64,000 nt of DNA from Nitrosomonas oligotropha (GTDB taxonomy: Bacteria > Pseudomonadota > Gammaproteobacteria > Burkholderiales > Nitrosomonadaceae), in assembly GCF_900106555.1 (NCBI RefSeq), contig NZ_FNOE01000001.1, positions 124,001 to 188,000 on the forward strand. The letters run 5' to 3'. Positions 7,437 to 34,004 of the stretch are shown here, one piece after another. The notes below the pieces were generated by a model. The model was not told the DNA's origin and searched no databases. It saw only the letters and a program-made list of their open reading frames with translations. Positions within the stretch are counted from its first letter, which is position 1, and every line of letters starts with the position of its first letter. The position numbers were made by a program, and so were the translations under genes.

Positions 7437-7607
7437 TTATCGCACGGCGCCTTTTCCAGCTTCCAACGCCTGATAATCTTCGAGAGAGATCAGAACAACT
7501 GGCGCTCCCTCTTTCCAGGTAATAATGACAGACACATGATCGTTGCAAACCCGTTTCATTGTTTGGGCTAAATTGGTGCAGATGGTTGAGTAATTAATTG
7601 TATTCAT
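7437..7607 (-). CDS. Short YefM/Phd-type antitoxin-like protein (56 residues), probably truncated
   Basis: A small gene. Its translation MNTINYSTICTN..., ending SLEDYQALEAGKGAVR, closely follows the N-terminal DNA-binding and dimerisation fold of YefM/Phd antitoxins, including the hallmark VVLISLEDYQALE strand-helix. Full-length YefM proteins are about 80 residues; here the toxin-neutralising C-terminal part is missing because a TAA ends the frame after residue 56. No toxin gene lies next to it; instead a MazG-like gene starts 4 bp downstream. A palindrome sits directly before the ATG. No Shine-Dalgarno sequence is visible. It may be a stand-alone autoregulator or a decaying antitoxin. Homology is clear by eye; function is inferred. 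Confidence 0.72.
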   Translation of the reverse strand: MNTINYSTICTNLAQTMKRVCNDHVSVIITWKEGAPVVLISLEDYQALEAGKGAVR

Positions 7608-7609
7608 AG

Positions 7610-7632
7610 AAATACTATTTATAAAAGTATTT
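7610..7632. promoter_or_regulatory. Palindrome in front of the YefM-like gene
   Basis: AAATACT and AGTATTT form a perfect 7-bp inverted repeat separated by 9 bp, placed 2 bp upstream of the antitoxin-like start codon. On the minus strand it also contains a TATAAAT box. Position and form fit an autoregulatory operator, as known for YefM/Phd proteins, but it could also be a hairpin terminating the upstream orphan gene, whose stop codon it touches. Confidence 0.4.
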
Positions 7633-8966
7633 TAAACAGGCAATTCTCTCACCCAATTTTGAGCTAAATCCTTTTCTTTAACATATTCAGATTCATCGCA
7701 CATTTCTAAAAATTTCTTAAAGTTTTCTACCGCCAAAATCTGATCGCCTTTGATTCCCATATTTATAAAACCAAGACAATAATATAGTTGATATTTAGTA
7801 GGCTCTTGTTCAATTAACCAGTGAATGAAATCTTCAATTTGAAATAATTTTTCTTGCTGATAATCACACTGCTCAGCATAGCGATAATGTTGAATGACTT
7901 TTTTTAAATCCCCTTTATACGCGTATAAGAAAGCCATATTACACTGCCAAATTTGATTATCACTTTCCTTCACTCTTTTTAACATGTCGATAGCTTTTTC
8001 AACAGAGCGAGTAGTTAAAAATGTAGTAATTGCTCTCAGAAATAAAACCGTTTTATTATCTTTTACCACTTCATCAATTTTATCAAGCCACTCATCGACT
8101 TCGGTCAAATAATCAAAATTGCGCGTTTCAGACCATTTGGAAAAATAAGTAGAGGCCATGGCTTCATATAGCTCTGCCAATCTATGTGGAATACGTTCTT
8201 TTAGTTTCCTATAAATAAGAAAATTTTGATCTTTGCCTTGAAGGCGTGATAAAACATCCTGATATAAATTTTCAGCATAATTAATATCCCCTGAGTAGGC
8301 AGCGGCAACGCCAATTATGTAACGAGCTACAGTCTCAGCCCATTCAGAGGTAAACTGAAAAGCAAAAAGATCGTTCTCAATTGGTATATGGACGTTTCTT
8401 GGTAAAAGTTCTGAGAATTCTGCGGTCAAATTTTCACGAACTTCATCTGACACTGGCTGATGAGCTACAGCCCCTTCTAACTCAATAATGTGGTTCTCTT
8501 GCTTGTTGATAATTTTTCGACGTACGCGCCCATAAATCATAAAATGCGCTTTACATCGAACTCGCATTTCAAGGGCAGAATCTACATCAATCACTTGATT
8601 TGCCAATCGCTGAGGCATCTCGATAAAGTGAAAAGAATTCCCGCTTGTACCGGTTCTAATAAGCTGTCTAAGCGGAATAATAAAATCCTCAGTAACCGAT
8701 TTTAATTCTTTCTCATCCGAACATGTAATACATACCAAGAATCCGATTTTGTTTTTTGGAACAACTGGCGGTTTCGTCGTATAAAACCATAAAAACCAAA
8801 CAACGAAGCTAATCACTGGTATTGAAATCCACCAAGTAAGCTCCGCATTAGCCGATATTAAAAGAAAAGATACTGAACATATAGAAAAAATTTCAGCACT
8901 GATTAAACCGATTTTTTTGTGCCAATATTCTTCTAAGAATTGAGCAATATCTCTAGGTGATTGCAC
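7632..8966 (-). CDS. Unknown membrane-anchored protein with C-terminal TPR-like helices
   Basis: I do not recognise a named family. The 444-residue product has two hydrophobic segments near the N-terminus (about residues 20-38 and 44-63) separated by a very short loop, then a soluble alpha/beta region of about 170 residues (starting NKIGFLVCITCSDE), then a helical region from about residue 215 with repeated Ala/Tyr/Leu-rich pairs of helices resembling tetratricopeptide repeats (AENLYQDVLSRL, YLTEVDEWLDKI, AIDMLKRVKESDNQIW, QILAVENFKKFLEMC). The soluble part should face the cytoplasm. The gene is strikingly AT-rich beside its neighbours, which suggests horizontal acquisition. It lies just upstream of the antitoxin-like gene on the same strand. 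Confidence 0.75.
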   Translation of the reverse strand: MQSPRDIAQFLEEYWHKKIGLISAEIFSICSVSFLLISANAELTWWISIPVISFVVWFLWFYTTKPPVVPKNKIGFLVCITCSDEKELKSVTEDFIIPLRQLIRTGTSGNSFHFIEMPQRLANQVIDVDSALEMRVRCKAHFMIYGRVRRKIINKQENHIIELEGAVAHQPVSDEVRENLTAEFSELLPRNVHIPIENDLFAFQFTSEWAETVARYIIGVAAAYSGDINYAENLYQDVLSRLQGKDQNFLIYRKLKERIPHRLAELYEAMASTYFSKWSETRNFDYLTEVDEWLDKIDEVVKDNKTVLFLRAITTFLTTRSVEKAIDMLKRVKESDNQIWQCNMAFLYAYKGDLKKVIQHYRYAEQCDYQQEKLFQIEDFIHWLIEQEPTKYQLYYCLGFINMGIKGDQILAVENFKKFLEMCDESEYVKEKDLAQNWVRELPV

Positions 8967-9043
8967 TTGCCGTACTTACGCCTCTTAGGATTAGAATTCT
9001 TTTTTGTTTTGTTTTTGTAATAGCCAAGAAGAAATAAAAGTGA

Positions 9044-9364
9044 TTATCTTGGAACACACCAAGTTCCACCTTTCCCAATCTCCTCGTGCAACCATACCGG
9101 ATCAAGATCAGCACCATTCGGCCACGTGAGCACACCTAACTCTATACGAACCTGATTGAATAATTGTTCATCTTTGAGTGATGCAAAGATGCCCGCCTCC
9201 TCACTGGAAATAAGCTGCGACATATCGACGGTACCAGCCGTGCCATCGCTACAAGTGACTGAAAGGCAATAATCAGGCAGTACAGTCACTGAACTTATAC
9301 GCCATGGCGCTACAGCCTTTATTCCAGAGGAGCGATGCTCTTGGGTAGCTGTTTCTGTTGACAT
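9044..9364 (-). CDS. DUF2442 family protein
   Basis: A protein of 106 residues with a DUF2442 domain: the strand pattern around VTVLPDYCLSVTCSDGTAGTVDMSQL and the C-terminal GVLTWPNGADLDPVWLHEE are typical. The ATG at 9364 is chosen because GGAGGA lies 9 nt upstream; a TTG at 9373 in frame has no ribosome-binding site. The gene overlaps the end of the DUF4160 gene by 46 bp, so the pair is co-translated. DUF4160-DUF2442 pairs are common in bacterial accessory regions and are often suggested to be toxin-antitoxin-like, but biochemical function is not known to me. Confidence 0.85.
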   Translation of the reverse strand: MSTETATQEHRSSGIKAVAPWRISSVTVLPDYCLSVTCSDGTAGTVDMSQLISSEEAGIFASLKDEQLFNQVRIELGVLTWPNGADLDPVWLHEEIGKGGTWCVPR

Positions 9365-9579
9365 AATTTCCAATCCTCCATCAATTCAGTGCGATGTTGT
9401 ACTGCCCATTCCAGAACCATTGCCAATGCCCTTTTTGGAAGATTACCTTTAATGATCTCCAATGTTCTTATATCAATTAATGCTTCATATTCCGCGTATA
9501 GCGCATGAAAATGCGTTGGCGAATGTTCGCGCCAGAACATTTGAATCACGATTCCAAAAAACTGGCTGATCGTTGGCAT
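9319..9579 (-). CDS. DUF4160 family protein
   Basis: An 86-residue protein of the DUF4160 family. It has the characteristic MPTISQFFGIVIQMFW start, the EHSPTHFHALYAEYEALIDI strand with clustered histidines, and the terminal helix ALAMVLEWAVQHRTEL that usually reads as W...H..EL..NW in the family. It is the first gene of an overlapping pair with the DUF2442 gene and precedes no other gene on that strand. The function is unknown; a toxin-antitoxin-like role has been suggested for such pairs because the two genes travel together. Confidence 0.88.
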   Translation of the reverse strand: MPTISQFFGIVIQMFWREHSPTHFHALYAEYEALIDIRTLEIIKGNLPKRALAMVLEWAVQHRTELMEDWKLCQQKQLPKSIAPLE

Positions 9580-9608
9580 CCTCTTTCTTCACTGTAAAAA
9601 TTTTATAA

Positions 9609-11273
<1,665 letters not shown>

Positions 11274-18322: not shown

Positions 18323-18410
18323 GTATCACAGCATTGACGCGCGTCATTGGCCACAGCAATCAACCTATAGCTGAAGTATCACCGGCTCCGGGCAATTGCC
18401 GGAAATCGCT

Positions 18411-19760
18411 ATGAAATTTATGCCATTCGTTTGGGTTGCCTGCATCGGGATGCTATCGCATGCCACGCTGCAAGCCGCCGACCTGATGAATATTTATCAG
18501 GAAGCATTAACACAAGACGCCCAGTTCAAGTCTGCGCGGGCCGCCTATGAAGCGGCTCAGGAAAAAATACCGCAAGGCAGGGCCGGTTTTTTACCGAATA
18601 TCACCTTGTCGGGCACACGCCAAGTGCAGGAAGTCGATGCTGGCAAAATCGTCAATTCGACAACCGGGCTGGCCATCAATCCCGGCGCCAATATCGTTCA
18701 AAGCGGCGGGATTACGATCTCCGCAACGCAGCCGATTTTCCGCATGCAAAATATCGTCATTTACCAGCAGGCAAAAATCGAAGTCAGCAAAGCGGAGTCA
18801 CAATTCATCACAGCCGGGCAAGACCTCATTTTGCGCGTAGCGCAAGCATATTTCGACGTACTGGATGCGCAAATCGATGTCGAAGTCATCGAAACGCAGA
18901 AAAATGCCATCCTGAGACAACTCGAACAAGCCAGGCGTAATTTTGAAGTGGGCGTTTCGACCATCGTCGATACCAATGAAGCGCAAGCGCGTTATGACTT
19001 GACGTTGTCGCAGGAAATCGCCGCGCGCAACGCATTGGAAATCAAAAAGCGCGCGTTGCAAGGCATTATCGACCGTCTCCCGGAGAATCTCTCCGGCGCT
19101 AGGGAAATCGCCAACAACTTGGCCACTTTGAAATACGGCAGCATGGATGAATGGGTGCGCACCGCGGAAGAAAAAAACTTTACCTTGAAAGCACAGCAAG
19201 CCGCGTATGAATCGGCGCATCAAAACGTAAAAAGAATCTGGGCGCAACATTACCCGACATTGGATCTGGTGGCGCAATACAGCAATCAAATCGGCGTCGG
19301 CGCGGCGGTTACCGGACGCGGCATCGATCTCACTTCGCAATCCATCGGTTTACAGCTCAATGTCCCCTTATTCCAGGGCTTTTCGGTGCAATCCCAGGTA
19401 CGCGAGGCGATGGCGCTGCAAAATAAAGTCTTGCACGATCTGGAAAACACCCGGCGCAACATCACGATACAAACGCGTCAGCAGTATCTGAACGTAACCA
19501 ATGGTATTGCACAGGTCAAAGCACTCAAGCAAGCCTTGGTTTCCAGCCAAAGCCAATTGGATTCGACCATTCTCGGCCAGCAAGTCGGGGTCAGAACCGA
19601 AGTCGACGTGCTCAATGCCCAGCAGCAACTATATGCCGCCAAGCGCGATCTGGCCAAGGCCTACCACAGCTACCTGATGTCCCGCTTGCGCCTGAGCGCG
19701 GAAGCCGGTGAATTGGACGAAGATGCGTTAATACAAATTAACGCCATGTTGATCAAGTAA
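18411..19760 (+). CDS. TolC-family outer-membrane channel protein
   Basis: Outer-membrane efflux/secretion channel of the OEP family, 449 residues. A signal peptide (MKFMPFVWVACIGMLSHA) is followed by LMNIYQEALTQDAQFKSARAA, the first of two OEP repeats; the second half shows the matching SQSQLDSTILGQQVGVRTEVDVLNAQQ repeat. Long coiled-coil helices fit the periplasmic tunnel. ATG 18411 is chosen since GGAA lies 6 nt upstream and it begins at the signal peptide. It may serve the RND pump at the window start or the HlyD/ABC peptide exporter 4 kb away, but neither link can be shown from the sequence. Confidence 0.92.
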   Translation: MKFMPFVWVACIGMLSHATLQAADLMNIYQEALTQDAQFKSARAAYEAAQEKIPQGRAGFLPNITLSGTRQVQEVDAGKIVNSTTGLAINPGANIVQSGGITISATQPIFRMQNIVIYQQAKIEVSKAESQFITAGQDLILRVAQAYFDVLDAQIDVEVIETQKNAILRQLEQARRNFEVGVSTIVDTNEAQARYDLTLSQEIAARNALEIKKRALQGIIDRLPENLSGAREIANNLATLKYGSMDEWVRTAEEKNFTLKAQQAAYESAHQNVKRIWAQHYPTLDLVAQYSNQIGVGAAVTGRGIDLTSQSIGLQLNVPLFQGFSVQSQVREAMALQNKVLHDLENTRRNITIQTRQQYLNVTNGIAQVKALKQALVSSQSQLDSTILGQQVGVRTEVDVLNAQQQLYAAKRDLAKAYHSYLMSRLRLSAEAGELDEDALIQINAMLIK

Positions 19761-20188: not shown

Positions 20189-21577
20189 ATGATCCGTAAA
20201 TTTCTCTGCAAGGTATTCAACCGTAAAGCGCCCGCTGCCGAATCGATCGCAACGCTGAGTATCATTCCAAACAAGCGCCACGGCATCCGGCGTAACCAGA
20301 TTAATCCGTGCGCGTTAAAAGTCGCCACTACCCTGCAACAGGGCGGATTTTCCGCCTATATCGTCGGGGGGGCGGTACGTGACTTGCTGCTGGGATTGAC
20401 ACCGAAAGACTTCGATGTCGCAACCAACGCAACCCCGGAAGAAATCCATAAGCTATTTCGCCGTTCACGCATCATCGGGCGCCGTTTTCGCCTGGTTCAT
20501 GTGATGTGCGGTATGGAAACGGTCGAAGTGTCGACTTTCCGCGGACCATCACCGGACGATGAGGCAGATTCCGCAGCAGTCCCGTTAACCGACCAGCATG
20601 GCCGCCTGTTGCAGGATAATGTTTTCGGCAGTCAGGAAGAAGATGCGGTACGCCGCGATTTCACCGTCAACGCACTGTTTTACGATCCGATCAAGGAAGA
20701 AATTCTGGATTATCTGAGCGGCTTTGACGACATTAAAGCCAAAAAGCTGCGCATTATCGGCGATCCGGAGCAGCGTTACCGCGAAGACCCGGTGCGGATG
20801 TTGCGCGCAGTGCGGCTAGGGTCGAAACTGGATATGCAAATCGACGCGGAAACCGCCAAACCGATCGGTGATCTGGCGCCATTGCTGCAAAATGTTCCGC
20901 CATCGCGCTTGTTTGATGAAATGCTGAAGCTGTTACTGTCGGGACACTCGTTGTCTTGCGTGGTCGAATTGCGCGCGCGCGGGTTGCATCACGGTCTTCT
21001 GCCGATGCTCGATGTGATCCTGGAACAACCGCTCGGTGAGCGTTTTATCACCATCGCACTGAAGAATACCGACGAACGGGTCCGGCAAAACAAACCCGTG
21101 TCACCCGGATTTCTGTTTGCCATATTGTTGTGGCACGAAGTGCTGGCAAACTGGAACACCTTGAAAGCATCCGGCGAAAAACCGATGCCCGCTTTATTTA
21201 AGGCGATGGATCAAATTCTTGCACGGCAACACAAGAACCTGGCGATTCCCCGTCGCTTTGACGCGGTGATACAGGAAATATGGTCGATGCAACCACGCTT
21301 TGAAGCGCGTAGCGGCCGTCAACCGTTCCGTTTACTCGCCCATCCGCGTTTTCGTGCAGCTTACGATTTCATGCAACTGCGCTGCGAAAGCGGTGAATTG
21401 GGCGCGGAGCTGGGCGAATGGTGGAAAACTTTCCTGTCCGTAGATAGTGAAGAACGGGAAAAAATGCTGCCCACGCAAACATCCGGTAAAAAACCCCGGA
21501 AAAGACGCAGCCGCAAAAAATCTTCTTCCAGTTCCGCTGCTCCGTCCGGCAACGCAACGGATCAAGAAAGCTCTTAA
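20189..21577 (+). CDS. pcnB: Polynucleotide adenylyltransferase (poly(A) polymerase) PcnB
   Basis: Class II nucleotidyltransferase of 462 residues that adds 3' poly(A) tails to RNA and speeds its decay. The catalytic motif GGAVRDLLLGLTPKDFDVATNA gives the metal-binding Asp pair; RRDFTVNALFYD and RYREDPVRMLRAVRL follow as expected. The C-terminus is a basic tail (KKPRKRRSRKKSSSSS). CCA-adding enzyme is excluded by the HGIRRNQINPCALKV-type N-terminal segment and the long basic end, both typical of PcnB. folK follows 12 bp later, the same order as in E. coli, which points to one operon. Confidence 0.95.
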   Translation: MIRKFLCKVFNRKAPAAESIATLSIIPNKRHGIRRNQINPCALKVATTLQQGGFSAYIVGGAVRDLLLGLTPKDFDVATNATPEEIHKLFRRSRIIGRRFRLVHVMCGMETVEVSTFRGPSPDDEADSAAVPLTDQHGRLLQDNVFGSQEEDAVRRDFTVNALFYDPIKEEILDYLSGFDDIKAKKLRIIGDPEQRYREDPVRMLRAVRLGSKLDMQIDAETAKPIGDLAPLLQNVPPSRLFDEMLKLLLSGHSLSCVVELRARGLHHGLLPMLDVILEQPLGERFITIALKNTDERVRQNKPVSPGFLFAILLWHEVLANWNTLKASGEKPMPALFKAMDQILARQHKNLAIPRRFDAVIQEIWSMQPRFEARSGRQPFRLLAHPRFRAAYDFMQLRCESGELGAELGEWWKTFLSVDSEEREKMLPTQTSGKKPRKRRSRKKSSSSSAAPSGNATDQESS

Positions 21578-21589
21578 TACACTCCTCGC

Positions 21590-22090
21590 ATGCATAAAAA
21601 ACCGAGCCAGGCCTTCATCGCTTTGGGCAGCAATCTGGAAAACCCGGTTTTTCAGATCCAACAGGCATTTGACGAATTGAAACGACTGCCCGGCACCCGC
21701 TTGATCAGCTGCTCATCGCTGTATCGAAGCGCTCCGGTGGGAAGACTGGATCAGCCTGATTTTATCAACGCAGTGGCCTTGATTGAAACCCAGCTTGCGC
21801 CACACGATCTGCTCAATGCGTTGCTGGCCATCGAGCAATGCCACGGGCGCATACGCGAATCGCTCAACGCGCCGCGAACGCTTGATCTCGACGTTCTATT
21901 GTATGATGCGCTGCAATACCAGGATACCCACCTGACCATCCCTCACCCGCGCATGACGCAACGTGCCTTTGTGTTAAAACCGTTGTTTGAGATTGCGCCG
22001 GATTACGATATTCCGGGTCACGGACCCATTGCACCGCTGCTTGCGGCGTGTCACGAACAACAACTGGAACAAATCAAGGAATCGCCCTAA
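21590..22090 (+). CDS. folK: HPPK (6-hydroxymethyl-7,8-dihydropterin pyrophosphokinase) FolK
   Basis: Transfers pyrophosphate from ATP to hydroxymethyldihydropterin in folate synthesis, 166 residues. The family pattern is clear: FIALGSNLENP at the start, then SSLYRSAPVGRLDQPDFINAV, and the catalytic RTLDLDVLLYDAL followed by LTIPHPRMTQRAFVLKPL. It lies 12 bp downstream of pcnB and converges on the ABC transporter gene after 8 bp. Confidence 0.96.
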   Translation: MHKKPSQAFIALGSNLENPVFQIQQAFDELKRLPGTRLISCSSLYRSAPVGRLDQPDFINAVALIETQLAPHDLLNALLAIEQCHGRIRESLNAPRTLDLDVLLYDALQYQDTHLTIPHPRMTQRAFVLKPLFEIAPDYDIPGHGPIAPLLAACHEQQLEQIKESP

Positions 22091-22098
22091 CCCGGCTT

Positions 22099-24282
22099 TT
22101 AACCTGCAACGGCAACCGGCAGTTCTGCCGGGGAATGCGCGGTGGGATCGAGTTCCAGTATTTGCGCGGACGTTTGGCCCGGCATATCGCTGATAATCTT
22201 TCCACCCTCCAACACAATGACTCTATCCGCACTGGCGATGGTTTCGGGACGATGCGCAACGATGATGCGCGTCAGTTTCAGCGCACGAATCGCTTCGTTG
22301 ACGCTGTGCTCACGCGCGATATCGAGATGACTGGTGGCTTCGTCAAGGAAAAGAATACTGGGCTGGCGGTAAAGCGCCCGGGCCAGCAATAGCCGCTGTT
22401 TCTGTCCACCTGACAAAACCGCGCCCATATCGCCGACTAATGTATTGTATTGCATCGGCATCGCGGTAATGTCGTCATGGATCGATGCCAGCCGCGCGCT
22501 TGCTTCGATACGGCCGTAATCCGCTTGCGCATCGAAAAAACAGATGTTTTCCGCGATGGAACCGGCGAACAATTGATCGTCCTGCATGACGCTGGCGACC
22601 GCATTGCGGTACCGTTCAATCCCAAAACGGCCCAGCGGGGCACCATCCACTTCGATACTTCCGCCGCTCGGCTGCAAGAGTCCCAGCATCAGTTTAACCA
22701 AAGTCGTTTTACCGCAACCCGACGGGCCTACGATGGCGACCGACTCACCCGGTTGGATATCGAAGCTGACATCGTGCAGCACCAGCGGATCGGTTTCCGC
22801 ATGACGAAAGGCCAGATGTTTTACTTCGATCCGTCCGGCAAGCGGCGCCGTGATACCTCCCGATTCATCAGGCGGTTCCGTGGGCGTGAGCGCAATATCA
22901 CCGGCACGTTCCGTGTGCAACCCTAGCATGCGCAATTCCAGGCCCTTTTCAATCAAGCCCGCGACACGCTGCACAAATTGGGTTTTATACGCGATGAAAG
23001 CAAACAGCATTCCGATCGAAAAACCGCTGCCGTTCGCGGTATCCAGCACCAGCATGGCGCCGAACCAAATGGCAATCACATTTTCCACACCAAACAGCAA
23101 GCCATTGAGTCCCTGATACAAAATACCCAGGCGCTGGGTCCGGATGCTGGCATTAAACTGATCGACCGTCAGATTTTGCCACGCTGCCGTACGCGGCGAT
23201 TCATGCGCGTGCAGCTTAATGCTCTGCATGCCGCGGATCGTCTCAAGAAAATGACTTTGTTGTTTAGCGCTGCGGACAATATGTTCTTCCGTGGCAAGAC
23301 GAAACGGACGGTATAACGCAAACCGCAGCAAGGCATAAACCACAGCGGCAATCAGTGCGATCAATGCCAGTTTGATACTGTAAAAAAGCATCATGCCGAG
23401 CGTGACCATGGCCATCACACCGTCGATCAACGCTTCCAGAAATCCGGTTGTCAGGGTACGTTGTATGACATTGAGCGAATCGAAACGCGACACGATATCG
23501 CCGACGTGACGCTTGTCAAACCAGCTCATGGGCAGGCGGATCAAATGACGAAACAGGTTCGTGATCATCTGCAAATTGAGCATTGTTCCAAGCACCATCA
23601 GCACCCAGGCGCGCAATGCTGTCACACCCGCTTGCACTATGGCGAACAACAGAAATCCAATTCCCAGCACGGTGATGAGATCATAATCTTGTGCCACCAG
23701 TGCCTGATCGACAATCCACTGCATATAGAAGGGCGCGAGGATAGCAAAAAGCTGTAATACCAGCGCGAGCACCAGGATCTGGGTAACCGTCCCGCTCAAT
23801 CCTTGCAAACGGCCGATCAACGTGGTCAGTTTTACCTTGCGCGTATCGTCGCGCGGCGTGAATTCGCTGGCCGGCATCAGCTCTAACGCAACCCCGGTGA
23901 AATGCTTGGAGAATTCGGCTAACGCCAATACACGTTCGCCTGCGGCCGGATCGTGCAGTGTGACCCGGTCTCCTTGAACACGAGTCAATACCACAAAATG
24001 ACTGAAGTCCCAGTGCAACACGCAAGGCAGCTTCAGTTCCGGCAAATGTACAAGATCCAGCCGCAAGGGGCGCGGTGTGAGTTTGAGTTGACCGGCAATT
24101 TTCATCAAATCGGCGAGTGTCGATCCGCGTAACGAGATGGGATAGCGTGTTCGCAAAGTAGCCAGATCGATGCGATGGCCATGATAACTGGCAATCATCG
24201 CCAAGCACGACAAACCGCATTCTGCCGCTTCGGTTTGCAGAATAACCGGGGTTTTGTGGCGTAAGGAAAAATTAAGCATCAT
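22099..24282 (-). CDS. C39-peptidase ABC transporter (double-glycine leader processing exporter)
   Basis: Peptidase-containing ABC transporter of 727 residues that cuts and exports peptides with GG leaders. The N-terminal C39 protease has the catalytic triad: Cys22 in EAAECGLSC, His95 in SHFVVL and Asp111 in LHDPAAG. A six-helix membrane domain is followed by an ATPase with Walker A GPSGCGKTT, signature LSGGQKQRLLLARAL and Walker B ILFLDEATSHLD. Two adjacent ATGs (24282, 24279) follow AAAGGATTG; either may be used. The gene is 8 bp from the end of the HlyD gene and is the last gene of the peptide locus, matching the double-Gly precursor at 26638-26841. The C39 domain is complete, so it should be active. 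Confidence 0.95.
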   Translation of the reverse strand: MMLNFSLRHKTPVILQTEAAECGLSCLAMIASYHGHRIDLATLRTRYPISLRGSTLADLMKIAGQLKLTPRPLRLDLVHLPELKLPCVLHWDFSHFVVLTRVQGDRVTLHDPAAGERVLALAEFSKHFTGVALELMPASEFTPRDDTRKVKLTTLIGRLQGLSGTVTQILVLALVLQLFAILAPFYMQWIVDQALVAQDYDLITVLGIGFLLFAIVQAGVTALRAWVLMVLGTMLNLQMITNLFRHLIRLPMSWFDKRHVGDIVSRFDSLNVIQRTLTTGFLEALIDGVMAMVTLGMMLFYSIKLALIALIAAVVYALLRFALYRPFRLATEEHIVRSAKQQSHFLETIRGMQSIKLHAHESPRTAAWQNLTVDQFNASIRTQRLGILYQGLNGLLFGVENVIAIWFGAMLVLDTANGSGFSIGMLFAFIAYKTQFVQRVAGLIEKGLELRMLGLHTERAGDIALTPTEPPDESGGITAPLAGRIEVKHLAFRHAETDPLVLHDVSFDIQPGESVAIVGPSGCGKTTLVKLMLGLLQPSGGSIEVDGAPLGRFGIERYRNAVASVMQDDQLFAGSIAENICFFDAQADYGRIEASARLASIHDDITAMPMQYNTLVGDMGAVLSGGQKQRLLLARALYRQPSILFLDEATSHLDIAREHSVNEAIRALKLTRIIVAHRPETIASADRVIVLEGGKIISDMPGQTSAQILELDPTAHSPAELPVAVAG

Positions 24283-24289
24283 CAATCCT

Positions 24290-25537
24290 TTAAATCCGGC
24301 CGGTGATCGACAACACCGGATCAAACACCCATTCAATCAACCTCCGCCGGTCGATATGAATATCCGCATCCAACACCATGCCCGCTTGCAGTGGCATCGC
24401 TTGGCCGTACGCTTGCACCTGCTGCTGCGGCAAACGGACCGTGATGCGGTATACCGACTCCTGAATCGCTACCGGCAAACTGGATTCATCCGGTTGAATC
24501 ACCGTGCGGCCAATTTCGGCCACCTCACCGAGATGATGTCCGAAGCGCTGATAGGGAAAAGCTTGATAGCGCAGGGAAACTTGCTGTTCCGGCTTAATAA
24601 ATCCGGCAGCGCGCGTGGGCACCAATAACTGCGCTTGTAGCTCGGCGCCCTCGGGCAAAATGGAAAGCAGCGGCATGGCTGGATTCGCCATCTGCCCTAC
24701 TTCAGCCAAAATGGTCGTAACTGTGCCATCGGCCGGTGCGGTCAAAATAACGCTACGGCGTGCATCCACTTCCGTGAGTTGCTGCTCCAACTCGGAGATT
24801 TGCCGTTCGATCGCTGCGGTATTATTGGCCTGTTTCAAACCGGAAGCCGATAATTCCACGCGCGCCGCGCTCAGCTCGCGATTCAGGCCGGTGATGCTGC
24901 GTTTTAATTGCGCGTGCTGATTACGCTGATCGATCAGCGCCTCCTGCTTTTCCTGCACGGCCGCATCGGAGACAAAACGCTCTGTCAGTAATTTTTCATA
25001 GCGCGCCACCGTGCGTTCCGCATTCGCCACGCGGCTGGCTTGAAGCGCCAATTGCGCCAAAGCTTCGCGGATTTCCGTTTCCAATCCCCGGATCCGTCCG
25101 GCAATACTGCTGCTGGTCAATACATCGATTTGCTGCTGCTTACCTTGCTCCTGCCGCAAACTATCGCGCCGTTGTTTCAGTTCACCGAGCATCGCCGCCT
25201 GCGCTTCGCGCGTATTCGACGTGGTCCGTTCGCTGGTAATGGTCAGCAATGCATCGCCTTGTTTGACCTGTTGACCTTCACTGACGTGCTTTTCAACCAC
25301 AGTTCCGGCTTGCGGGGAGAAAATCCGGATCATGCCTTGTGTCGGCGACAAATAACCCACCACATGTTCCTTACGGGTATATTCCCCCCAGTATGCAAAA
25401 CCAGCGATCGCGATGGCAAAAAGCGCAGCTGCCCAAACCAGCACACTGATCGCCGGAGACCGGGCAATCAAAACATCGCCATGCAGGCGGTTTTGCTGGT
25501 GGGATAAGGCTTCTGTGCGAAAGAGGTTGTGTTTCAT
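24290..25537 (-). CDS. HlyD-family secretion adaptor of the peptide exporter
   Basis: Membrane fusion protein of 415 residues that partners ABC exporters with an outer-membrane channel. One N-terminal TM helix (about residues 29-50, ISVLVWAAALFAIAIAGFAY) is followed by the first lipoyl half (FSPQAGTVVEKHVSEGQQVKQGD), long coiled-coil hairpins with repeated Leu/Gln/Arg, and the second lipoyl half (APADGTVTTILAEVG), ending with a beta-barrel domain. It lies between the radical SAM gene and the C39-ABC gene. ATG 25537 is chosen from the typical position of the TM helix; an upstream ORF extension overlaps the radical SAM gene and is not supported. Confidence 0.93.
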   Translation of the reverse strand: MKHNLFRTEALSHQQNRLHGDVLIARSPAISVLVWAAALFAIAIAGFAYWGEYTRKEHVVGYLSPTQGMIRIFSPQAGTVVEKHVSEGQQVKQGDALLTITSERTTSNTREAQAAMLGELKQRRDSLRQEQGKQQQIDVLTSSSIAGRIRGLETEIREALAQLALQASRVANAERTVARYEKLLTERFVSDAAVQEKQEALIDQRNQHAQLKRSITGLNRELSAARVELSASGLKQANNTAAIERQISELEQQLTEVDARRSVILTAPADGTVTTILAEVGQMANPAMPLLSILPEGAELQAQLLVPTRAAGFIKPEQQVSLRYQAFPYQRFGHHLGEVAEIGRTVIQPDESSLPVAIQESVYRITVRLPQQQVQAYGQAMPLQAGMVLDADIHIDRRRLIEWVFDPVLSITGRI

Positions 25538-25554
25538 TGGATCAATGGATGACG

Positions 25555-26613
25555 TCAAATATCGCTGTGCGCATGCACTACATTCGATTGACCGCTCTTT
25601 TTCATGGGAGACGGATGATTCGTTTCTTCCGCCCGTTTGCCAATCAAATTGTTCCAATCAAAGAAATAGGGTTTAGGCGCACAGGCAATTTCATCGTACA
25701 CATCCCGGCAGAGCGCATAAAACGCTGGCAGGCGCTGTACTTGCCAGTCTTTCAGCAGTGTGCGCAACGGTGCCTGGGTTAAATTACCGATGGCAAAATC
25801 CCGCGCAAATCCGTATTGAATTGGACTGACGGTGGCGTCCGCCTCAATCACGATCGGAGAAACCAAATCGCCAAACCGTTTAATTTTGAGTTCTGACGCA
25901 GCACTGGCAAAAACCAGCTCAGGATGTTGTTTCACGGTTTCGCTAAATGCGAGATCAATTTGCACTCTCAACGCACTGTTATTGCTTTGCTGGGCAAGCA
26001 GCCAGGCATACGCGCTTTCCGTCGCATCCGGCGCGCTTCCTTGCAACATCGTGGCGGCATTACCGACTTCCTCCAAGGGGTGAATCTGGAGCAATTTTGC
26101 ACCTTCGCTAATGGCAAAATCCCGGACCCAGTCGAGTTCGTTCAGATTGTATTGCGTCAATGTGAAAATAAAACCGAAATTCAGATTCGCTGCGCGCAGC
26201 AACGGCAAGCGCGCTTTCATGGTATCGAACGCCAGTTGCGAACCTCTGATGCGATTATGCGACTCGGGTATGCCGTCAATGCTTATCGCCAGCACATCGA
26301 CGTTGCCATACAACAGCTCGATATTGGGCGCCGTCAGCAACATTCCGTTGGAAGTCACACTGGTACGCATACCGCACGTGTGGGCATGCTGTAATAATTG
26401 CGCCAACGGTTTATAAAGCAGCGGTTCACCACCGGAAAGACTGACAAAATTGAAACCTTCATCGGCTGCATCCGAAATGGCCTCACACAAAAGATCAAGC
26501 GCAAGTGCGCCATGCGCGCGCGGTGAAGAAGAAGAATAGCAGTGGAGACAACTCAGATTGCACTGCCGTGTTGGATGAATTTGCAAAATACGGGCTGATC
26601 CGGTTGGTCCCAT
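25555..26613 (-). CDS. Radical SAM peptide-modifying enzyme
   Basis: Radical SAM enzyme of 352 residues, predicted to modify the product of the adjacent precursor gene. The 4Fe-4S cluster motif CNLSCLHC (Cys18, Cys22, Cys25) and the GGEP-like LSGGEPLL follow the family order, and TSNGMLL and AISIDGIPESHNRIRG complete the TIM-barrel pattern shared with PqqE-, AlbA- and XyeB-type maturases. There is no complete SPASM cysteine set; only Cys302 and Cys311 (CRDVYDEIAC) remain near the C-terminus, so auxiliary cluster binding is uncertain. A strong GAGGGAG ribosome-binding site lies 6 nt before the ATG. The reaction is not known; cyclophane C-C cross-linking is one possibility inferred from the core sequence. 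Confidence 0.9.
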   Translation of the reverse strand: MGPTGSARILQIHPTRQCNLSCLHCYSSSSPRAHGALALDLLCEAISDAADEGFNFVSLSGGEPLLYKPLAQLLQHAHTCGMRTSVTSNGMLLTAPNIELLYGNVDVLAISIDGIPESHNRIRGSQLAFDTMKARLPLLRAANLNFGFIFTLTQYNLNELDWVRDFAISEGAKLLQIHPLEEVGNAATMLQGSAPDATESAYAWLLAQQSNNSALRVQIDLAFSETVKQHPELVFASAASELKIKRFGDLVSPIVIEADATVSPIQYGFARDFAIGNLTQAPLRTLLKDWQVQRLPAFYALCRDVYDEIACAPKPYFFDWNNLIGKRAEETNHPSPMKKSGQSNVVHAHSDI

Positions 26614-26637
26614 TGCTATCTCCCTCTTTATGAACTG

Positions 26638-26841
26638 TTAGAATCCGTTACTGATCGAATTGTTAACGTGATAAATATCGACCGGGATACCCCTGATTAG
26701 CCAAGATGGAAAAGTGTTAAAATTAACTGCACCGAAACCGGATAATCCACCCGCGATTTGACTGATTTCTTCCGGGGTTAAGCTCGCCATGGTTTGGCAT
26801 TCGGCTTTCAGTTTTTCAGAACCGCTCATTTCATGAGACAT
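26638..26841 (-). CDS. RiPP precursor peptide with double-glycine leader
   Basis: A 67-residue peptide. Its leader ends in LTPEEISQIAGG, which fits the C39 rule: hydrophobic at -12, Glu at -8, Ile at -7 and -4, Gly-Gly at -2/-1. Cleavage would give a 35-residue core (residues 33-67, LSGFGAVNFNTFPSWLIRG and onward to NSISNGF). The only Cys (15) is in the leader, so the core cannot form thioethers. Aromatics are spread along it: Phe36, 41, 44, Trp47, Tyr57, His58, Phe67. A strong AAAGGAG lies 7 nt before the ATG. It is the first gene of a unit with the radical SAM, HlyD and C39-ABC genes, 24 bp before the radical SAM gene. Recognition as a precursor is an inference from leader and context. Confidence 0.85.
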   Translation of the reverse strand: MSHEMSGSEKLKAECQTMASLTPEEISQIAGGLSGFGAVNFNTFPSWLIRGIPVDIYHVNNSISNGF

Positions 26842-26917
26842 GATTTTTCTCCTTTGAAGGATTTAATAAACATTACTAGGCGGATTGATCGATCCCAAAG
26901 TTGCAATTGAAATAAGG

Positions 26918-26934
26918 TTTTGGCGCTGCCAAAA
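26918..26934. promoter_or_regulatory. Palindrome upstream of the RiPP locus
   Basis: TTTTGGC-GCT-GCCAAAA, a perfect 7-bp inverted repeat with 3-bp centre, sits 77 bp upstream of the precursor start codon in the 279-bp gap that separates the precursor from the divergent panB. It could be an operator for the peptide operon; it could equally be a small hairpin in its leader RNA. Confidence 0.35.
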
Positions 26935-27120
26935 ACTGCTGCCAATGCATTTATCAACCAATCCAGTTTCAAGATAACGCGATTGACCCAGAATCGCAGT
27001 GAGAAAAATCACAGCGGAATGCACATCCATTCCGGATATTGAAACGTCCATTGGAAGCCAACAAATACGCTATGATGATCCGGTAACAGCTAAGTCTTTA
27101 TCAGGTATTGATACAAAAAC

Positions 27121-27912
27121 ATGAGAATTTCCCACCTTACCCTGCAAAAAATGGTTGAAAACCGTGAAAAATTCGCGGTACTGACTTGTTACGACGCAAC
27201 ATTTGCTGCCGTACTGGAAAATGCTGGTGTAGACGTGTTATTGGTTGGCGACTCGTTGGGCAATGTATTGCACGGCAGTGACACTACCTTAGCTGTAACG
27301 CCTGAAGACATGATTTATCACACACGCTGTGTCGCGCACGGCAGCAACAAGGCGCTGATCATCACGGATATGCCGTTCGGTAGTTATCAGATCTCACCCG
27401 CGCAAGCGTTTGAGCATGCCGCCAGGATTATCGCCGCGGGTGCGCAGATGGTTAAAATCGAAGGCGGTCGCATCATGGCCGATACGATCCAGTTTCTTTC
27501 CCAGCGCGGTATTCCGGTATGCGCGCACATCGGTCTGACACCGCAATCAGTTCATCAGCTGGGCGGATATAAACTACAGGGCAATACGGAGAAATCGGCA
27601 AAACAATTGCTCGACGACGCAAAGGCGCTGGAAAAATCCGGTGCGAGCTTACTGGTCATGGAAATGGTTCCAGCGAAATTGGCGAAAAAAATTACCCAAG
27701 CATTATCTATTCCGACGATCGGCATCGGCGCGGGCCCCGATTGCTCAGGCCAGGTGCTGGTACTGCACGATATGCTGGGACTATCCCAGGGTAAAAAACC
27801 GCGTTTCGTCAAAGACTTTATGCCGGGTGCCAAAAATGTACCCGAAGCTGTGGCAAATTATGTGCAGGCTGTCAAAACCGGACAGTTTCCTGCTAAAGAA
27901 CACGAATTTTGA
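27121..27912 (+). CDS. panB: 3-methyl-2-oxobutanoate hydroxymethyltransferase PanB
   Basis: First committed enzyme of pantothenate synthesis: transfers a hydroxymethyl group from methylene-tetrahydrofolate to ketoisovalerate. 263 residues. Family strings are visible: [29 protein letters not shown] with metal-binding Asp, the ADMPFGSYQ-like TDMPFGSYQ, and the [20 protein letters not shown] near the end. panC begins 13 bp downstream, so the two form an operon. Confidence 0.97.
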
Positions 27913-28780: not shown

Positions 28781-30196
28781 ATGACTGCTTTTCCAAACCA
28801 GACAGACGAAGAACAAAAAATGATGCAATCACTGAATACTTTCTGGTTATCTTGCCTTGATCATTTTAGAAAAGAACTCAACGCACAGCAATTTAACACC
28901 TGGATCAAACCCTTACAAATTGATCCGGAACTGAATAGCGACGACGAAGTTGTATTGATTGCACCGAACCGTTTCGTGTCGCAATGGGTTAAAGATAATT
29001 TCATCGCGCACATTGAAAACATGGCGCTGATGTACTTCGGTAAGAAAATCCAGTTTCACCTGAAACTGGCTGAGCCAAATGATGCAAAAGCTGTGATAGT
29101 CAAAGCCGCGCCGGTGGAAACGCCACAGGAGCCGCCAGTGGAACTCAAGGCCGCATACCAGCCGGGCAGGAAAAATCCCAGCGGTCTGAATCCAAATTTT
29201 ACATTTGATAATTTCGTCACTGGCAAAGCCAACCAGCTCGCGCGCGCCGGTGCAATTCAGGTAGCCGAATCGCCCGGCATTGCGTACAACCCGCTGTTCA
29301 TCTACGGCGGCGTGGGACTGGGAAAAACGCACCTGATCCAGGCCATCGGTAATTACGTGCAGGAAAACAACAAAAACGCCAAGATCCGCTACGTGCATGC
29401 GGAAAAATACGTATCCGACGTGGTCAGCGCATACCAGCACAAAGCTTTCGACAAGTTCAAGCTGTACTATCATTCGCTCGATCTGCTGCTGGTGGACGAT
29501 GTGCAGTTCTTTGGCGGAAAGAATCGCACGCAGGAAGAGTTTTTCTATGCGTTCAACGCACTGATTGAAACACATAAACAAGTGATCATTACTTGCGATA
29601 CCTATCCGAAAGAAATTACCGGACTAGAAGAACGACTGGTATCGCGTTTCGGCTGGGGATTGACGGTTGCGGTCGAGCCGCCGGAGCTGGAAATGCGTGT
29701 GGCGATTTTATTAAAGAAAGCCTTCCAGGAAAAAATGCGCCTGGACGAAAATGTCGCATTTTTCATCGCCAAACATATCCGCTCCAATGTGCGCGAACTG
29801 GAAGGCGCATTGAAGCGCGTGCTGGCTTTTTCGCGCTTTGTCGGCCAGGAAATCACGCTGGATCTGGCGAAGGAAGCGCTAAAGGACTTGCTCGCCGTGC
29901 AAAGCCGGCAGATTTCGATCGAGAACATTCAGAAAACCGTTGCCGACTATTACAAAATCAAAGTATCGGAAATGTACTCGAAAAAACGCTCGCGTATCGT
30001 TGCACGGCCGCGGCAAATGGCGATGGCTATCGCTAAGGAATTGACTGCATTGAGCCTGCCGGATATCGGCGAAGCGTTCGGTGGCAGAGATCATACCACC
30101 GTGCTGCATGGCTACCGGAAGATCAACGAACTGCGGATTTCCGACCCCGTGGTGAACCGAGATTTCAACGCGCTGATACTCATTTTAAGAGGTTGA
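28781..30196 (+). CDS. dnaA: Chromosomal replication initiator DnaA
   Basis: Replication initiator, 471 residues from the first ATG. Domain I ([21 protein letters not shown]) is followed by a short domain II, the AAA+ domain (Walker [11 protein letters not shown], Walker B LLVDDVQF) and domain IV with the DNA-binding signature [15 protein letters not shown]. The start is uncertain: ATG 28781 has no Shine-Dalgarno; ATG 28820 or 28823 would begin at the usual N-terminus. It is followed by the AT-rich gap with DnaA boxes and then dnaN. Confidence 0.97.
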
Positions 30197-30384: not shown

Positions 30385-31500
30385 ATGCTTTTAATTAAAA
30401 CCAATCGAGATACGTTGCTAAAACCGTTGCAAACGGTTACCGGAATTGTCGAACGACGTCAGACATTACCCATCCTATCAAACGTGCTGATCCGGCAAAA
30501 TGCGGAAAAGACCTCTTTTTTGACCACTGATCTGGAAATACAAATCAAAACGATTGCAACCCTTGATTTGTTGCCCAAACAGGATTTTTCCTTAACGGTT
30601 TCCGCAAAAAAACTGCAGGATATTTTGCGTTCGCTATCCGCCGATGCCGAAGTGACATTAACCCGGCAAGACGATCATCTCTACGTCAAATCGGGCAAAA
30701 GCGCGTTCAATCTGCAAATACTTCCGGCGGAAGACTTTCCGGAAGTTGCTGAGGAAGCTGAATCGGAAGATGCAATTACGCTGAAACAAAAAGAATTAAA
30801 AGACTTGTTGCACCATGTCCAGTTTGCCGTCGCGCAACAAGACATCCGTTATTACCTGAACGGTCTTTTGTTATTGACGGATAACAAGCAATTTATCAGT
30901 GTCGGCACCGACGGGCATCGTCTGGCTTACATCGCAGCGGCATTGGATAAAGCACAGAAAAAACAGGAAGTCATCCTGCCACGCAAGGCTGTGTATGAAC
31001 TATCCAAACTGCTCGAAGACAGCGAAGAGCCGGTGACCATTGAATACTTCCAGAACAAGGTGCGGTTTTCCTTTTCAGGCATTGTCCTGACGTCCAAAGT
31101 CATCGACGGTAAGTTTCCCGACTACAACCGCGTTATCCCGACCCGGAACAACAAACAGTTTGAAATTAGCCGCCAAACCTTCTTGCAAGCGTTGCAACGC
31201 GTATCGATATTGTCTAATCAAAGCGAAAAATTCCGTGGCGTGCGTTTAATCGTCAGTGAAAATAACCTGCGTATCGTTTGCAAAAACAACGAACAGGAAG
31301 AAGCTGAAGAGGAACTGGAAATCAACTACCGTGAAGAAGCAGTAGATATCAGCTTGAACATCACCTATCTGCTCGATTTATTGAACAATATCGATAGCGA
31401 AACCGTGCTGTGCGCGTTTGAAAATGCCAATAGCAGCGTGCTGATCACAATACCTGGGAACGATGCGTTTAAATATATCGTCATGCCGATGAGAATTTAA
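30385..31500 (+). CDS. dnaN: DNA polymerase III beta sliding clamp DnaN
   Basis: Sliding clamp, 371 residues. It starts MLLIKTNRDTLLKPLQTVTGIVERRQTLPILSNVLI, which is typical, and contains VGTDGHRLAYI and the three related clamp domains; it ends with KYIVMPMRI, the normal C-terminus. It lies between the oriC gap and gyrB. The 83-bp gap after it holds no recF, which many proteobacteria have here. Confidence 0.98.
   Translation: MLLIKTNRDTLLKPLQTVTGIVERRQTLPILSNVLIRQNAEKTSFLTTDLEIQIKTIATLDLLPKQDFSLTVSAKKLQDILRSLSADAEVTLTRQDDHLYVKSGKSAFNLQILPAEDFPEVAEEAESEDAITLKQKELKDLLHHVQFAVAQQDIRYYLNGLLLLTDNKQFISVGTDGHRLAYIAAALDKAQKKQEVILPRKAVYELSKLLEDSEEPVTIEYFQNKVRFSFSGIVLTSKVIDGKFPDYNRVIPTRNNKQFEISRQTFLQALQRVSILSNQSEKFRGVRLIVSENNLRIVCKNNEQEEAEEELEINYREEAVDISLNITYLLDLLNNIDSETVLCAFENANSSVLITIPGNDAFKYIVMPMRI

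Positions 31501-31580: not shown

Positions 31581-34004
<2,424 letters not shown>

Follow-up and report, generated by a model that had tools for sequence, protein, structure and literature searches.

The DNA window analysed here, a stretch of 64 000 nucleotides from Nitrosomonas oligotropha (contig NZ_FNOE01000001.1, positions 124 001 to 188 000), carries at 22099–26841 of its minus strand a gene cassette that is very probably a self-contained unit for a ribosomally synthesized and post-translationally modified peptide (RiPP), with an enzyme of an undescribed radical S-adenosylmethionine (rSAM) family and a precursor in whose core the modification site can be placed. The cassette is of a known kind, the rSAM RiPP with a Gly-Gly (GG) leader and C39 export. 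What can be read from the sequences is the genes themselves, the enzyme–precursor pairing across three clades, a core motif, and the loss of auxiliary-cluster cysteines from the enzyme. A four-gene, one-strand unit had been proposed here by a sequence-only reading of the window, and all genes were recovered at their coordinates in the order precursor, rSAM enzyme, HlyD adaptor and C39-peptidase ATP-binding cassette (ABC) exporter, separated by gaps of 24, 17 and 7 bases and with no further gene between them. The features of the cassette, in window coordinates and with the evidence for each, are as follows.

26638–26841, minus strand: precursor peptide gene, 67 residues, GG-type leader (translation; one profile match per genome in 9/9 genomes)
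Upstream of the precursor gene, minus strand: Shine–Dalgarno-like AAAGGAG (sequence)
26746–26841, minus strand: leader, residues 1–32, ending in GG (LTPEEISQIAGG; C39 peptidase in the cassette; cleavage predicted)
26797–26823, minus strand: leader motif GSEKLxxxC of the proteobacterial members, residues 7–15 (alignment of leaders)
26641–26745, minus strand: core, residues 33–67, free of Cys (translation)
26683–26703, minus strand: core motif WLIRGIP, residues 47–53, presumed modification site (19/19 precursors; codon comparison)
25555–26613, minus strand: putative rSAM maturase with a degenerate SPASM domain, 352 residues (Pfam PF04055; AlphaFold2 model; PDB fold matches)
26539–26562, minus strand: CxxxCxxC rSAM [4Fe-4S] motif, residues 18–25 (invariant in 20/20 aligned enzymes)
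25708–25710, minus strand: codon of C302, the sole other invariant Cys (20/20 aligned enzymes)
24290–25537, minus strand: HlyD-family periplasmic adaptor, 415 residues from ATG (Pfam HlyD_3)
22099–24282, minus strand: C39 peptidase/ABC exporter, 727 residues from ATG (Pfam domains; motif residues)
23866–24252, minus strand: C39 peptidase domain, residues 11–139 (Pfam PF03412, 4.4e-34)

The starts of the HlyD and ABC genes were taken at ATG; the mechanical list of open reading frames (ORFs) puts both at an upstream TTG.

The pairing of enzyme and precursor was followed through the 22 genomes in which the rSAM family was found (21 full-length enzymes and one fragment, in Nitrosomonas, Methylococcales and cyanobacteria), which were gathered in draws that overlap and do not form a random sample. 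A search for homologues of the enzyme had been suggested by the sequence-only reading as a check, and it was positive: in 19 of the 22 genomes a small co-conserved GG-leader gene sharing the core pattern immediately precedes the rSAM gene. A search with a precursor profile gave exactly one match (E up to 0.01) in each of the nine genomes searched, in every case adjoining the rSAM gene.

All 19 cores contain an aromatic residue, then two to four residues, then G-[IQT]-[PV]. The window core has WLIRGIP, and the usual proteobacterial form is W[LW][IK][RY]G[ITQ]P[VA], locus L033 with FPQGIPA being the exception; the cyanobacterial form is FPxGI[PV] (for example FPYGIPA). The L049 core has two repeats, FPPTIGIV and WPPTIGIV, and the L005 core two FPVGIPVG stretches. 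The residue preceding the invariant Gly is nearly free across the cores (R, Y, Q, V, M, H or I). As a control, the same expression was applied to 244 further small ORFs of the examined loci that show a G-type leader pattern, and none matched, these being mechanical ORFs of which many are surely not genes. Shuffling of the cores predicted 0.62 matches among 13 non-redundant cores (the 19 minus six near-identical ones), and 13 were observed; as the expression was written after the 19 cores had been viewed, the shuffle and control figures are descriptive and not unbiased.

Codon comparisons indicate that the core motif is under purifying selection among close orthologues. Codons 46–56 of the window precursor, compared with each of the Nitrosomonas orthologues at L002, L003 and L004, showed three synonymous and no non-synonymous changes, and codons 57–67, compared with the same three, showed one or two synonymous and four or five non-synonymous changes, all of these being small numbers.

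The leader of the precursor ends in LTPEEISQIAGG and is followed by a 35-residue core. This ending had been said to fit C39 cleavage, and the presence of a C39 peptidase in the same cassette is consistent with that prediction. The leader carries one cysteine, C15, which is kept in the proteobacterial precursors: all 13 have exactly one leader Cys, and G7, S8, K10 and C15 are invariant in the nine of the 13 that were aligned. The stretch GSEKLxxxC is common to the proteobacterial leaders, with near variants in L016 and L033; the leader at L005 has a similar GSKK..C stretch, and the remaining five cyanobacterial leaders are without Cys. No core contains Cys (0 in 19/19 precursors), which sets the family apart from sactipeptides, ranthipeptides and lanthipeptides and bears out the earlier exclusion of thioether chemistry. 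The precursor had also been said to match no known family, and this held: no Pfam family matched it, its single NCBIfam match scored 13 bits at a cut-off of 40, and none of six homologous precursors scanned against NCBIfam reached a cut-off. At L016, in a Nitrosomonas, the rSAM and HlyD genes are separated by an additional small GG-leader ORF whose core is unrelated (2640–2825 of the reverse complement, on the rSAM strand).

The enzyme contains CxxxCxxC and was matched by Pfam Radical_SAM (PF04055, 9.1e-19). Against NCBIfam its best score was 91 bits, at a cut-off of 525, and no cut-off was reached among the best 25 of 80 families; individual scans of 14 family members gave 7.5e-31 as the lowest E-value over the best 25 of 73 families. 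An AlphaFold2 model of the enzyme (predicted local distance difference test, pLDDT, 83.6; predicted template modelling score 0.85) was used for a fold search of the PDB, in which a family absent from the match list is not thereby excluded. Model residues 2–340 aligned with SPASM-type entries in whole-chain matches, and the SPASM maturases SkfB (Z 24.7, root-mean-square deviation (rmsd) 7.0, 281 aligned), SuiB (Z 23.8, rmsd 3.2, 288 aligned) and anSME (anSMEcpe; Z 22.0, rmsd 3.5, 289 aligned) were among the best, together with BlsE (Z 23.2, rmsd 3.4, 278 aligned).

Outside CxxxCxxC, C302 is the sole invariant Cys of the aligned enzymes, the next Cys columns being occupied in 9, 7 and 6 of 20; the G075 copy and the G524 fragment, both among the 22 enzymes, are absent from the 20-row alignment and from the tree. 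A reference for the cysteines was available in an rSAM enzyme of the family TIGR04103 (PlpX-type spliceotide maturases) encoded beside the family's enzyme at L005, which has 13 cysteines including a SPASM CxxCx5CxxxC knot. In hhalign the profile of the window family aligned with this enzyme at a probability of 99.6% and 20% identity. C302 aligned with the knot cysteine C326, and the SPASM cysteines C252, C270, C317, C320 and C330 are replaced in the window protein by F, I, Q, P and Y. The family thus probably goes back to a SPASM enzyme, its auxiliary clusters having been lost, and an auxiliary Fe-S cluster in the window enzyme is unlikely because only one SPASM cysteine, C302, is kept. TIGR04103, although a distant homologue, is a separate family with a SPASM Cys knot: its cut-off is 725 bits, the L005 neighbour scores 827, and the best score of the window enzyme against any NCBIfam family is the 91 bits given above.

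A RiPP recognition element (RRE) was sought in the same data. The model has no room for a fused RRE, its first strand beginning at residue 9 and residues 333–352 being predicted disordered, and no RRE family is present among the enzyme's Pfam matches (three in all) or its best 25 NCBIfam families. The window enzyme differs from the SPASM maturases SkfB, SuiB and anSME in that a single SPASM cysteine is kept, in having no room for an N-terminal RRE, and in acting, as proposed, on a core without Cys.

In the mechanism proposed here, as no RRE domain was seen, either separate or fused, the rSAM enzyme would itself recognize the leader, and its target in the core would be the aromatic-x-x-X-Gly-Ile-Pro site. 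Cleavage after Gly-Gly would fall to the C39 domain of the exporter, and the 35-residue product would leave through the ABC exporter and the HlyD adaptor. Hydrogen abstraction by the enzyme is predicted at a backbone C-alpha, either that of the invariant Gly or one adjacent to it, in a reaction that would be redox-neutral. A change to the backbone rather than to a side chain is suggested because the residue before Gly is nearly free, and a redox-neutral reaction is favoured because the enzyme appears to be without an auxiliary electron acceptor. We tentatively put forward L-to-D epimerization of the variable residue before Gly (Arg50 in the window). With a D-residue ahead of Gly, the chain would be held in a tight turn linking the aromatic strand to the Ile-Pro strand, and an enzyme acting iteratively would suit the PVG-I-PVG repeats of L005. 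The sequence-only reading had left the chemistry open, a cross-link with a loss of 2 Da included; a cross-link is the main rival to epimerization, and a mass-neutral change now appears more likely because the auxiliary-cluster cysteines have been lost.

Known peptide epimerases offer partial parallels. In the proteusin epimerases (PoyD type, TIGR04517) the rSAM cluster is the sole cluster and a single further Cys is strictly conserved (PMC8326336), and the window enzyme apparently resembles them in this. It differs in that no C-terminal RRE was seen and in that its substrate has a short GG leader instead of a nitrile-hydratase-like one; TIGR04517 was not among the best 25 of the 80 NCBIfam families for the enzyme. 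Homology to PoyD was considered and rejected: a search with a PoyD model, which gave no match in the first 40 genomes or in 14 controls, was widened to 273, and comparison with four PoyD-type sequences from three genomes yielded nothing convincing. The epipeptide epimerase EpeE (YydG) is of similar size (PDB chain of 344 residues) and was matched in fold (Z 19.5, rmsd 4.0, 272 aligned, 16% identity, model residues 2–334), although it ranks below SkfB, SuiB, BlsE, anSME and others, and EpeE has a second [4Fe-4S] cluster and a catalytic Cys223; auxiliary cysteines are absent from the window family.

Several results weigh against this account. C302 was considered as a possible hydrogen donor of the EpeE/PoyD type; in the alignment it is the relic of a SPASM ligand, and by eye no clear correspondence to the key Cys of PoyD-type enzymes was seen. 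In addition, hhalign against the four PoyD-type sequences gave a probability of 0.6% with the rSAM motif region alone aligned. The aromatic residue is kept in every core, and a cross-link needs one, whereas epimerization would need it only for recognition. Modelling of a fused precursor and enzyme left nearly all of the precursor at pLDDT <50 and gave docking no support. In a more distant comparison, L015 with L016, the amino acids of the motif region vary too: its codons 41–52 showed about seven synonymous changes in 8.8 sites and six non-synonymous changes in 27.2 sites. Finally, the precursor was not found at two of the 20 aligned rSAM loci. At one of these, L038, the rSAM gene lies about 400 bases from the start of the contig; at the other, L034, no precursor was found in about 8.6 kb upstream, the contig ending about 300 bases downstream, and L034 is, as far as the data go, a real exception to the pairing. 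L035 also gave no precursor, the rSAM gene there being itself a fragment cut at the start of its contig.

The persistent aromatic residue speaks for a cross-link, in which Trp or Phe would be joined to a nearby residue (triceptide-like i to i+2, or Trp-Ile i+2) in a strained ring with a loss of 2 Da. W or F stands three to five positions before Gly in 19/19 cores, W-x-I occurs in the cores of the window, L015, L016, L006 and L008 among others, and SuiB, the enzyme of a Lys–Trp linked peptide, is among the fold matches. ItfD links Trp i to Ile i+2, and a C39 exporter is encoded in its biosynthetic gene cluster as well (PMC11002830). Aromatic and Gly are, though, 3, 4 or 5 positions apart, and position i+2 holds I, K, Q, V, M, Y, H or P, which leaves a cross-link without a constant partner; at position −3 the window core has Leu, where WW and FP cores have an aromatic. 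According to the review, XncB, OscB and MscB are SPASM enzymes and ItfD came from a search for SPASM/twitch enzymes; the window enzyme has lost the auxiliary-cluster cysteines. Triceptide and ItfD systems share with the window family an aromatic near the presumed modification site; the variable partner and the missing auxiliary-cluster cysteines appear as differences. We regard a cross-link as rather unlikely.

The Gly present in 19/19 cores could itself be the site of reaction, with abstraction of its C-alpha hydrogen followed by bonding to a backbone NH or a side chain, or by oxidation and chain cleavage. There is a precedent in HghB, which bonds the C-alpha of Gly i+1 to the amide NH of the preceding His i (PMC11002830). 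Such reactions are oxidative, however, and the enzyme seems to be without an auxiliary electron acceptor; the Gly may also be kept for turn geometry alone, and chemistry at this residue is judged improbable.

Excision of part of the residue before Gly, as by a splicease, was considered since PlpX removes tyramine from Xaa-Tyr-Gly (PMC11002830), the cores have an X-G junction, and this junction is Y-G in the cores of L007, L008, L009, L032, L037 and L048. At L005, moreover, a TIGR04103 enzyme and a Nif11-leader precursor with two YG sites adjoin the family's rSAM gene. That enzyme is encoded by a separate gene, with a SPASM Cys knot and a precursor of its own; TIGR04103 is not among the best 25 NCBIfam families for the window enzyme, and 13 of the 19 cores have no Tyr before the motif Gly. 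A splicease identity was accordingly rejected, the L005 enzyme being a separate neighbour, and we consider splicing very unlikely. The arrangement at L005, in a cyanobacterial metagenome-assembled genome (MAG), is of note in its own right: the Nif11-leader precursor (9244–9684, with PLYGVV and PMYGVI) and the TIGR04103 maturase (9728–10993) lie directly downstream of the family's rSAM gene, so that two different rSAM RiPP systems are neighbours there.

That the rSAM gene is a chance neighbour and no peptide maturase, the exporter handling an unmodified GG-leader peptide, is hardly credible: unmodified class II bacteriocins do use the same kind of exporter, and L037, L047 and L048 gave no full-length exporter match in the examined stretch, but these three loci still pair the rSAM gene with a precursor of the same core motif, and the pairing is conserved across three clades. 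Cyclopropylglycine formation of the TvgB type, which had been prompted by the V-G repeats of L005, was rejected on the R, Y, H or Q found at that place in other cores; the TvgB paper, in the part available, concerns Val in TVGG repeats.

If the tentatively favoured epimerization is correct, the family could add to the RiPP backbone epimerases a third class of independent origin, SPASM-derived, with auxiliary clusters shed, without an RRE and perhaps iterative at repeats such as those of L005, a proposal that we consider possible but doubtful. The family, the core motif and the pared-down SPASM enzyme are absent from the Pfam matches and from the NCBIfam rows listed. Among the papers listed in the literature search no title or abstract start describes the family, which may be an unnamed entry in a large atlas of rSAM RiPPs. 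As a maturation system the cassette is minimal, needing two genes (enzyme and precursor) and having a sharply delimited substrate motif; a SPASM-fold enzyme without auxiliary-cluster cysteines would allow a test of whether their loss turns an oxidative cross-linker redox-neutral. Secreted modified peptides are predicted in ammonia oxidizers, methanotrophs and cyanobacteria.

The exporter had been credited with an intact Cys/His/Asp triad, and C22, H95 and D111 are indeed present in a C39 domain of near full length (profile positions 2–132 of 133); Pfam also matched ABC_membrane and ABC_tran. Q16 is retained too, and these four residues we take to be the C39 catalytic residues; Walker A, LSGGQ and Walker B are likewise kept. 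The adaptor was matched by Pfam HlyD_3 (3.6e-19), its best NCBIfam family being TIGR01843 at 148 bits, below the cut-off of 209. In Methylococcales an exporter gene stands directly after the rSAM gene and is only 27–29% identical to that of the window; an HlyD-like gene, recognized by eye, follows it and was found with the window HlyD by tblastn only in L009. Exporters were present nearby in L005 and L049. Short partial exporter matches were obtained in L037 and L047, and the 4.8-kb contig of L036 gave no exporter match. The conserved pairing is that of enzyme and precursor, and export is interchangeable, because the exporter is distant in Methylococcales and some examined stretches gave no full-length match.

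Three further observations concern export. At L049, in a cyanobacterium, two more GG-leader peptides with Gly/Ala-rich, bacteriocin-like cores are encoded after the rSAM gene and before a C39-type exporter (9294–9482 and 9595–9783 of the reverse complement). At L003, in a MAG, the C39/ABC gene (7456–9634) is apparently frame-shifted near its start, the ORF with the C39 start lying in another frame than the one matching the remainder; it is either a decayed exporter or an assembly error. In the window, a gene for a TolC-like outer-membrane protein (by eye; 18396–19760, plus strand) lies about 2.3 kb from the cassette and could complete a tripartite exporter.

The distribution of the rSAM family was tallied at E-value limits of 1e-30 to 1e-60, with some candidates per genome scored, so that distant relatives are uncounted and misses possible. 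It was found in seven of 125 genomes of the window's family, one of 398 genomes of the window's phylum (the window's own), eight of 251 genomes of a methanotroph order (one a fragment), and 4/291, 3/339 and 3/192 cyanobacterial genomes in overlapping draws; collections of plasmid and viral sequences gave no relatives. The window enzyme is 94% identical to that of Nitrosomonas sp. MAG_20 and 91% to that of N. oligotropha Nm45. In a tree of 20 enzymes the support was 100/100 for the Nitrosomonas clade, 100/99 for Methylococcales and a moderate 84/91 for the cyanobacterial group; L034 sits on a long branch and its place is unsure.

The cassette lies between two genes that we take, from their sequences, to be folK and panB, on the strand opposite to both.

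21590–22090, plus strand: presumed folK, flanking the cassette on the left (sequence; gene order in the genus)
27121–27912, plus strand: presumed panB, flanking the cassette on the right (sequence; gene order in the genus)

In the genus panB was found in 58 of 61 genomes. Among its best 30 panB loci the rSAM gene was present in five, and in 22 of the other 25 folK lies 6–418 bases upstream of panB; by this gene order, the cassette splits a conserved folK–panB pair. In L039 and L040, from more distant Nitrosomonas (G041 and G029), the cassette is present and no folK, pcnB or panB match was obtained in the examined stretches, so that it sits elsewhere in these two. We infer that it is an accessory cassette, gained or lost as a unit.

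Some smaller features of the locus were recorded. To the right of panB/panC, window ORFs at 28781–30196 and 30385–31500 are dnaA- and dnaN-like by eye, and that at 31584–34004 was guessed from the order to be gyrB, which would place the cassette about 2 kb from a likely replication-origin region. An Rfam scan of 21500–27600 gave no match, and a promoter-like site was at chance level only. On the minus strand at 26918–27034, 77–193 bases upstream of the precursor start, are three terminator-like hairpins where 0.6 would be expected in the 700-base stretch scanned; they may belong to a leader region or mark where an upstream transcript ends.

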